Assembly: GCA_913056435.1 (NCBI GenBank)
Contig: CAJXMY010000003.1
Span: forward strand, 1-39,502
Length of the DNA stretch: 39,502 nucleotides
Direction of reading: 5' to 3'
Origin: an uncultured Hyphomonadaceae bacterium
GTDB taxonomy: Bacteria; Pseudomonadota; Alphaproteobacteria; Caulobacterales; Hyphomonadaceae
The first letter of the stretch is position 1. Each line of letters opens with the position of its first letter. This document shows, one piece after another, positions 32,366 to 34,386 of the stretch. Below the pieces are notes generated by a model. That model was not told the origin of the DNA. It was given only the letters and a program-made list of their open reading frames with translations, and did not search any database. Position numbers and translations under genes: made by a program.

Positions 32366-32863
32366 TCAGCGGCAGGCCGCGGCCGCCCGGTCAATCGCAG
32401 AGGAAGAGCCGGAAAGGGAGAAGTGGTAGGTCACCCGCGTATTACGCCAGGACGTCGCCTCAACCCGCAGCTCCCGACCGCGTTTCAGTGCGCGGACCAG
32501 ACGGGCATCATCACTGTCCTGGGCGAAGGCTTCCGCGCCGACCCCATAGAGCGTCCAGCTCTCACGGCCGATCTGCGCCTTGCCGGGCAGATCGGCGCGC
32601 AGATCATAACCCACTTTCAGACTGGGCTGATTGCGGGCCCGCCCCGTGCGCCAGCTGGACACGTAGAACCAGACCTCGCCATGATCGGCCGCCTGTGGAG
32701 CCTTGTCGGTCGCCTGGGTCGCGGCATAACACAGGGTTTCACCGCCAACGGTCTCGGTGAAAACCGTCCAGTCGCTGTATTTGCCAAGGGCACTGGGCGC
32801 GGCCAGAGCCACCGGCCCCAGTGACAAGGCCCCCAGCAGACCGGCTACAGACCGCAACATCAT
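32366..32863 (-). CDS. Invasion-associated locus B (IalB)-like secreted protein
   Basis: Signal peptide MMLRSVAGLLGALSLGPVALAAPSA; YSDWTVFTETVGGETLCYAATQATDKAP...GEVWFYVSSWRTGRARNQPSLKVGYDL. Confidence 0.75.
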   Translation of the reverse strand: MMLRSVAGLLGALSLGPVALAAPSALGKYSDWTVFTETVGGETLCYAATQATDKAPQAADHGEVWFYVSSWRTGRARNQPSLKVGYDLRADLPGKAQIGRESWTLYGVGAEAFAQDSDDARLVRALKRGRELRVEATSWRNTRVTYHFSLSGSSSAIDRAAAACR

Positions 32864-33037
32864 GGCGCTTCTCCTGTGAACGACACCTCAACACCAACCA
32901 GTTTTATCCATGAGGGTTAAGGCCGAAATAAGACGCGGATGTTGTGCGGCCTTCAGAGATTTATTTTCTCGCCGCGGTTGCGTTGTCTCTATAATGAGCG
33001 CTTTATACGTGCAGAAAGCGCTTTCAGGGGATATGAT

Positions 33038-33616
33038 TTGGCCCTCCAGCATGGGATTCTGGCCGAAGACGAACGCACGCATTTCGCCAATTGCATGGGG
33101 CGGATTGCACGTGAGCGCTGTCGCGCCTCCTTCGCCGAGCTGTTCGAACATTTCGCGCCCCGCCTCAAAAGCTATCTCATTCGTCTGGGCAGTGACCCTC
33201 TGGCCGCGGAAGAAATCATTCAGGAAGTGATGCTGAACGTCTGGCGCAAGGCCGATCAGTACGACGCCACACAGGCCTCGGTCTCGACCTGGATCTTCCG
33301 CATCGCCCGTAACCGGCGCATTGACAGCCATCGACGCCTGGCCAGACCGGACCTGGATCCGGAAGACCCCCTCCTGCGTCCCCCCGATGCCGAGTCCCCG
33401 GACGTCATCGTCAACAGGCACCAGGTCGAAATCGTCGTCCGGCGCGAACTCGAAACCCTGCCAGAAGAACAACTCACCCTGTTGCAGGCCGCTTTTTATG
33501 ACGGCCTGTCTCATTCCGAAATCGCCAAACGCTTCGAACTGCCTCTGGGAACGGTGAAATCGCGTATTCGCCTTGCTTTTCAGAGACTGAGAAAAAGTTT
33601 GACCGGCGAGCATTAA
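33038..33616 (+). CDS. ECF-type RNA polymerase sigma factor
   Basis: Sigma2 FAPRLKSYLIRLGSDPLAAEEIIQEVMLNVWRKADQYD...WIFRIARNRRIDSHRR; sigma4 LPEEQLTLLQAAFYDGLSHSEIAKRFELPLGTVKSRIRLAFQRLR; ORF open from 32939; start uncertain (TTG 33038 after CAGGGGA, or ATG 33095). Confidence 0.93.
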   Translation: MALQHGILAEDERTHFANCMGRIARERCRASFAELFEHFAPRLKSYLIRLGSDPLAAEEIIQEVMLNVWRKADQYDATQASVSTWIFRIARNRRIDSHRRLARPDLDPEDPLLRPPDAESPDVIVNRHQVEIVVRRELETLPEEQLTLLQAAFYDGLSHSEIAKRFELPLGTVKSRIRLAFQRLRKSLTGEH

Positions 33617-33714
33617 ACCAAAGCTCACAATCTTCGCTTGCATGGCCTTGACGGAACGAAATTTGAATTATTATCGACTGTGAAGAGAGTGTTTTTTAGG
33701 GATAAACCGAGACC

Positions 33715-34386
33715 ATGCTTGCGCGAAAGCCATCTGATTTCGGCGAAATATACAGTGCCTACGCCGCTGGATGTCTGGACCCGGCCTTTCAGCTCCTCGT
33801 TGAGACTCAGGCGGCGCTACGCCCGGATGTCCGGCAGGCCGTGGCGCAGGCGGAAACCATCGCAGGCGTGTTTCTGGAGACCGAGGCCGCCACGGCCGTG
33901 TCCGATGGGGTTCTCGATCAGCTCCTCTCACGCATTGACGGGCTGGACCAGACCGCCAACGAACATACACGTGCCGCAGAAAGGGCCGGAGACATTCTTG
34001 ATGAGATCCTGCGCCTGCCCGCCCCGCTGCGGGATCAGGCTCTGGAAGCGAGCATGGACAGGTCCTGGACAAAACTGGCACCCGGCGTGTCCCGCTTAAA
34101 CCTCGGCGTGGAAAGTTCCACCGAGGTCGAGCTTTACCGGATTGAACCCGGCCGAACGCTCCCCCGCCACTCCCATCGCGGCAATGAGCTGACGCTGGTG
34201 GTGGCCGGCGGCTTCGAGGATGGCACCGGCCACTTCCGGGCGGGCGACCTGTCCGTAAAGGGCCCACAGGATGTTCATCAGCCTACCGCTGACAGCGATA
34301 GCATCTGCTTTGCGCTGGCCGTGCGCGATGCGGGCCTCGAGTTCAAGGGCGTTTTTGGCCTGGTCCAGAAAATGCTTCGCCGCTAG
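33715..34386 (+). CDS. chrR: ChrR-like cupin anti-sigma factor lacking zinc ligands in the anti-sigma domain
   Basis: SAYAAGCLDPAFQLLVETQAALRPDVR (ChrR ASD layout) plus cupin LPRHSHRGNELTLVVAGGFEDGTGHFRAGDLSVKGPQDVHQPT; downstream of ECF sigma. Confidence 0.85.
   Translation: MLARKPSDFGEIYSAYAAGCLDPAFQLLVETQAALRPDVRQAVAQAETIAGVFLETEAATAVSDGVLDQLLSRIDGLDQTANEHTRAAERAGDILDEILRLPAPLRDQALEASMDRSWTKLAPGVSRLNLGVESSTEVELYRIEPGRTLPRHSHRGNELTLVVAGGFEDGTGHFRAGDLSVKGPQDVHQPTADSDSICFALAVRDAGLEFKGVFGLVQKMLRR

Follow-up and report, generated by a model that had tools for sequence, protein, structure and literature searches.

The closest described relative of the system presented here is the SigE/RpoE-ChrR pair of Rhodobacter sphaeroides, which belongs to the ECF11 group of sigma factors (structures 2Q1Z and 2Z2S). 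In this organism sigma binding by ChrR depends on the zinc of its anti-sigma domain (ASD) (PMC6852236, PMC6432622), helix IV of ChrR binds sigma region 2.1, and the part that the response is known to need is the cupin domain rather than the ASD (PMC6852236). The ECF11 promoter was defined as TGATCC-N16-CGTA (PMC5507510, PMC5036791, PMC4336711), the photolyase-amine oxidase-DUF1365-cfa operon belongs to the published ECF11 core regulon, and SigE also drives rpoHII in R. sphaeroides (PMC6852236). The role of the ASD zinc in the singlet-oxygen response was stated as unknown in a review (PMC6852236), and no data rule out that its oxidation is part of the trigger (PMC6432622). Zinc-free anti-sigma domains are known from RseA and RskA (PMC7406223, PMC6852236), soluble class I anti-sigma factors lacking the zinc motif were put at about 28% (PMC7406223), and protein-protein contacts can stand in for the zinc of an anti-sigma factor (reviewed in PMC6852236). 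The ECF11 pair rpoE2-chrR2 of Azospirillum brasilense is described as constitutively expressed in a title cited in PMC5507510.

The locus considered here lies in the window, i.e., the whole stretch of 39,502 nucleotides that was analysed, and its source genome, that of a marine bacterium, groups with Henriciella (Hyphomonadaceae) among named relatives. The gene at 33715-34386 codes for a ChrR family anti-sigma factor and stands beside an ECF11-type sigma gene (Table 1). The protein resembles R. sphaeroides ChrR in domain order, predicted fold and cupin ligands, and the two systems have in common the adjacent sigma gene, the promoter motif and the core regulon with its rpoH-like target; unlike R. 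sphaeroides ChrR, however, the window's protein has no zinc ligands in the ASD. The layout also departs from that of the zinc-keeping systems surveyed, since the sigma gene has no ECF11 site and the anti-sigma gene lies about 100 nt downstream of it, behind an RpoD-like element of its own. With a probability of roughly 75%, the gene is read here as a working, zinc-independent ChrR that holds its ECF11 sigma factor, releases it through the cupin and/or proteolysis, and thereby controls an unlinked core regulon as the blocker in a switch for light and oxidant stress.

Table 1. Features of the locus and of unlinked genes discussed in the text
Feature	Position	Strand	Details
IalB-family gene	32366-32863	-	Divergent from the sigma gene
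Sigma upstream region	32864-33037	+	No ECF11 site (TGATCC-N16-CGTA); contains conserved blocks
ECF11-type sigma gene	33038-33616	+	Pfam Sigma70_r2/r4; start uncertain, TTG 33038 to ATG 33095
RpoD-like promoter element in sigma/anti-sigma gap	33648-33675	+	TTGAC-N17-NTTATC
ChrR-type zinc-free anti-sigma gene	33715-34386	+	223 aa, ATG start
Anti-sigma domain (ASD)	33715-33966	+	AF2 helices H6-17, H23-35, H37-56, H66-84; without zinc ligands
Lost zinc-ligand positions	33808-33831	+	Q32 33808-33810 (ChrR H31), R36 33820-33822 (C35), V39 33829-33831 (C38)
Cupin domain	34051-34383	+	Ligands H152 (34168), H154 (34174), E158 (34186), H188 (34276); Pfam Cupin_7
Short ChrR-like cupin gene	G000:C1:20971-21492 = L051:8972-9493	-	173 aa; followed by DUF6134 gene
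rpoH-like sigma gene	G000:C130:2360-3259 = L208:576-1478	-	Exact ECF11 site 22 nt before ATG

A ChrR-type protein without zinc ligands in its anti-sigma domain

The first-pass annotation, made from the sequence alone, had called the protein ChrR-like, and this assignment holds: the score against TIGR02451 (anti_sig_ChrR) is 140.3 bits, above the cut-off of 124.5, residues 113-200 match Pfam Cupin_7 (4e-15), and among solved structures the best phmmer relatives are the R. sphaeroides ChrR entries 2Z2S/2Q1Z (E 2.4e-24). AlphaFold2 (AF2), run on 45 sequences, predicted four ASD helices followed by the cupin (mean pLDDT 86.5; 74-96 for the ASD block, residues 11 to 80), so that the ASD is modelled as a complete four-helix domain that includes helix IV. 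A Foldseek search with this model returned ChrR 2Q1Z on top (TM 0.79), and the first six matches were all ChrR chains (2Q1Z/2Z2S). The NF051881 model, which describes the Caulobacter-type ChrR responsive to cadmium, peroxide and UV, matches the protein over most of its length; the score of 115.4 bits stays below the cut-off of 300, thus the protein is not an equivalog of that type. E. coli RseA and M. tuberculosis RskA, of the non-zinc class I, likewise have a helical-bundle ASD that contains no zinc. They are membrane anti-sigma factors without a cupin. Unlike them, the window's protein is of the ChrR type, and no membrane segment is predicted for it.

In the phmmer alignment to ChrR, which is free of gaps in this region, H31, C35 and C38 are replaced by Q32, R36 and V39. 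The annotation had read the four lost positions as K, Q, R and V; the last three agree with this alignment, but the first does not, since an alignment of 177 proteins places S7 opposite ChrR H6, and K5 would take that place only if a one-residue gap were inserted. Its broader statement, that the ASD has lost its whole set of four zinc ligands, is borne out either way. The signature of zinc-binding anti-sigma (ZAS) proteins, H-x3-C-x2-C with a fourth ligand near the N-terminus, is absent, and on its residues the protein can be classed as a ChrR that nevertheless stands outside the ZAS proteins. A missed N-terminal extension that supplies the ligands was considered and rejected: the in-frame TAA that the annotation had placed 12 nt before the ATG at 33715 was confirmed at 33703-33705, and the extensions of relatives lack the ligand set. 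The frame of the nearest relative (72% identical) is open further upstream, yet no ligands were found there.

One may ask whether the ASD binds a metal by unusual ligands, or borrows them from the cupin or from the sigma factor. Gln and other side chains can coordinate a metal weakly. However, the only His or Cys residues among residues 1-110 are C20 and H84, which makes an alternative site of three to four His/Cys ligands in the ASD impossible. The H6 position, moreover, varies among orthologues (N, S, P, I, Y, H, T, Q), unlike a ligand. Although a mixed ASD/cupin coordination was proposed for oxidised ChrR (PMC6432622), metal binding of this kind is therefore very improbable here.

The cupin domain has kept its site, as the annotation had noticed. 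H152, H154, E158 and H188 align with ChrR H141, H143, E147 and H177, thus the pattern H-x-H-x3-E...H is preserved, and all four ligands (HHEH) are present in 176 of the 177 proteins of the whole set.

Spread and maintenance of the zinc-free form

The loss of ligands is not peculiar to one protein, as it could have seemed from a single sequence. The anti-sigma gene was found in 28 of the 29 genomes of the genus sample, in which no zinc-bearing ChrR was detected; the second match in most of these genomes was a short paralogue. All 47 Henriciella/Hyphomonas orthologues carry Q, R and V, I or L at the three lost positions (Q-x3-R-x2-[VIL]), a fixation that argues against chance. Among 110 ChrR proteins sampled evenly across the class, HHCC was kept in 81 and missing from 29. 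A tree of sigma and ChrR from 121 loci, built with the ligand columns removed and containing several long branches, places the window's protein, with full support, in a clade of 59 loci, none of which has the full HHCC set and which includes the 47 Henriciella/Hyphomonas orthologues. Across the 121 loci the zinc state changed at least eight times, counted irrespective of direction. Taken beside the HHEH ligands of 176 of 177 proteins, this suggests that it is the cupin that the protein cannot do without.

The zinc-free ASD is under strong purifying selection: for those closely related pairs that allowed an estimate, its dN/dS is about 0.03-0.1. Because of these low values and of the helices predicted by AF2, the domain looks maintained without zinc; the loss is thus not decay, but a real, conserved and recurrent change. 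The annotation's view that the ASD acts independently of metal is a sensible one on these grounds, i.e., no possible His/Cys ligands, a folded model and a low dN/dS. The source genome is fragmented (336 contigs), which might bring to mind an error of assembly, sequencing or start codon, yet the same residues occur in 46 other loci, those of Henriciella and Hyphomonas isolates included, and a stop codon precedes the ATG. Since orthologues carry the same residues, this explanation is refuted and its chance is negligible.

A search of the literature, mostly of openly available papers, turned up no account of zinc-free ChrR proteins in their own right. Three loci titled 'Candidatus Sulfopaludibacter' or 'Acidobacteria bacterium' (L065, L071, L073) are of the Hyphomonas type and group with Hyphomonas; their record titles look wrong.

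Promoters of the locus and the ECF11 regulon

The neighbouring sigma factor has R. sphaeroides RpoE/SigE as its best solved relative (2Q1Z chain A, E 2.7e-42) and shares with it the -35 recognition helix LPLGT[VI]KSRIRLA; the annotation had rightly placed the anti-sigma gene just downstream of an ECF sigma gene, the neighbour being a match to the RpoE of the ChrR crystal complex. The listed open reading frame of the sigma gene opens at 32939, whereas in the nearest relative the frame opens only in the region of 33038-33095. Sigma and anti-sigma genes are adjacent in 47/47 loci. Given this adjacency, the selection on the ASD and the predicted helix IV, the window's protein probably binds and inhibits the neighbouring sigma factor.

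Upstream of the window's sigma gene, a search for the ECF11 site with spacings of 15-17 nt gave at best 6/10, no better than shuffles, and no site of at least 9/10 was found nearby within the window. None of the 47 Henriciella/Hyphomonas loci has an ECF11 site before the sigma gene, thus they lack the arrangement of an autoregulated rpoE-chrR operon, whereas 33 of 42 zinc-keeping loci have a site (at least 9/10) there. The distance between the two genes differs as well, with a median of 101 nt in Henriciella/Hyphomonas vs. -1 nt, a near overlap, in the zinc-keeping systems. Conserved blocks, GTTAAGGC..GAA (at 32916) and, about 60-70 nt further on, GGTTGC, precede the sigma gene throughout the genus (32916-32990 in the window); neither is an ECF11 site.

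The consensus TTGAC-N17-NATATC is present (at least 9/10, always with N17) in 37 of the 59 gaps of the zinc-free clade and in 0.08% of shuffled gaps; the motif was read by eye from the same alignments, so that the shuffle test is not independent. The element resembles the Caulobacter RpoD consensus TTGaCgS/GCtANAWC (PMC8144410). A GGAAC (general stress) promoter was also considered for the gap and rejected, its pattern being absent there. Zinc loss and lost autoregulation are associated (Fisher p 1.7e-16, raw, the signal coming largely from one clade), but the four supported phylogenetically independent pairs gave no significance. As the signal belongs largely to one clade, the independent pairs are not significant and the ECF11 site persists with several other ChrRs that have no zinc ligands, the idea that the one loss caused the other was rejected and no causal link is claimed.

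The targets of the sigma factor are found elsewhere in the genome. Using the ECF11 consensus and core regulon carried over from other species, seven exact sites were detected in the source genome and none in the reversed control, and the promoter motifs indicate that the regulon is intact there. The photolyase-amine oxidase-DUF1365-cfa operon has a site of 8/10 in the source genome and of 8-10/10 in most of the genus, mostly 61-69 nt upstream; a site of at least 9/10 precedes the rpoH-like gene in 15/21 loci. In one member of the genus (G013, 100% complete) the zinc-free ChrR, the photolyase and the second rpoH-like gene are all missing, a pattern that looks like the loss of an entire module in one piece. 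The photolyase frame of the source genome (G000:C1:15441-16892; L051:3442-4896) is open but shows no ATG, GTG or TTG near the expected N-terminus; the ATG found shortly before it is in a different frame, so the gene may have an unusual start or may carry a one-base error of assembly.

The annotation had further proposed an altered trigger, and zinc loss could indeed have changed the signal, e.g., from singlet oxygen to another ligand of the cupin. The promoter arrangement has changed too, and where there are no zinc thiolates their oxidation in the ASD is impossible. However, the target promoters and the regulon with photolyase, cfa and the rpoH-like gene match those of singlet-oxygen ECF11 systems, and in R. 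sphaeroides a need for the cupin in the response has been established, but none for the ASD (PMC6852236). With core regulon and promoter motif intact, an unchanged class of signal is the likelier case; the proposal lacks support, and a changed trigger has a rather small chance. The annotation's suggestion that sensing may rest only on the cupin would fit the data. The altered promoter arrangement and the second ChrR paralogue had escaped the annotation.

The short paralogue and the possible working of the switch

On a contig other than that of the window, the source genome encodes the short ChrR-like cupin protein, whose gene has an exact ECF11 site 30 nt upstream; the site is exact in 21/21 genus genomes tested and in two relatives from the family or order (23/23 together). 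The short paralogue shares with the window's anti-sigma factor the four cupin ligands, the ASD core helices 1-3 and ChrR 2Q1Z as best fold match (AF2 pLDDT 87), but differs from it in that the long helix IV is missing, of the zinc ligands only the His at the H31 position is kept (invariant, with no Cys ligands), no sigma gene lies beside it, and its promoter is of the ECF11 type. A comparison with a viral fold library gave no ChrR-like match, and in the class sample the full-length paralogue matched only the window's genome.

A rival view is that the window's ASD no longer binds sigma, so that a degenerate ChrR would be kept only for its cupin, as sensor or enzyme, while sigma would be controlled transcriptionally or by the paralogue. 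The zinc ligands on which R. sphaeroides ChrR depends are missing, and the lost ECF11 site together with the separate promoter-like element before the anti-sigma gene means that the ordinary operon feedback is gone; the paralogue, in turn, sits under a perfect ECF11 promoter. Yet the two genes have stayed side by side in every one of the 47 loci, selection on the ASD is strongly purifying, and the domain is predicted to be complete, with four helices including helix IV, the very helix that the paralogue lacks. Loss of sigma binding is unlikely on this evidence.

According to the preferred reading of a zinc-independent ChrR, the four-helix ASD would fold and hold sigma without structural zinc, the fixed Q-x3-R-x2-[VI] packing replacing the zinc-bridged knuckle of helices 2 and 3, and protein-protein contacts would keep the domain together as in RseA. 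Singlet oxygen or organic peroxides would then cause sigma release through the conserved metal site of the cupin and/or proteolysis, with no zinc-thiolate oxidation in the ASD; sensing is most likely a matter of the cupin or of protein stability and turnover. The freed sigma factor would transcribe the unlinked photolyase-amine oxidase-DUF1365-cfa operon, the rpoH-like gene and the short paralogue with DUF6134.

With its promoters shifted and the short paralogue under induction, the system may use another design of feedback, and one may conjecture that the paralogue is a sigma-induced feedback partner. A wider and more tentative proposal, which is possible though on balance doubtful, is that the ECF11 switch has been rebuilt in this clade: the sigma gene is not autoregulated, the zinc-free ChrR is supplied steadily from a housekeeping promoter as holder and cupin sensor, feedback comes from the unlinked, sigma-induced paralogue without helix IV, and ASD zinc chemistry lies outside singlet-oxygen sensing.

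As a large conserved clade has no ASD zinc site while cupin and regulon are kept, it offers a natural experiment on zinc as a part of the sensor, and with natural zinc-free ChrRs the role of the ASD zinc in singlet-oxygen sensing becomes directly testable. If the zinc-free systems respond to singlet oxygen, the response can do without oxidation of the ASD zinc, and the models of dual oxidation and mixed coordination are not general. ChrR homologues with other patterns in place of the ASD zinc ligands (e.g., K-D-A, Y-N-A, Q-N-L) were seen at loci L042, L044, L050 and L260-L285; several of these retain the ECF11 autoregulatory site and provide independent cases for comparison.
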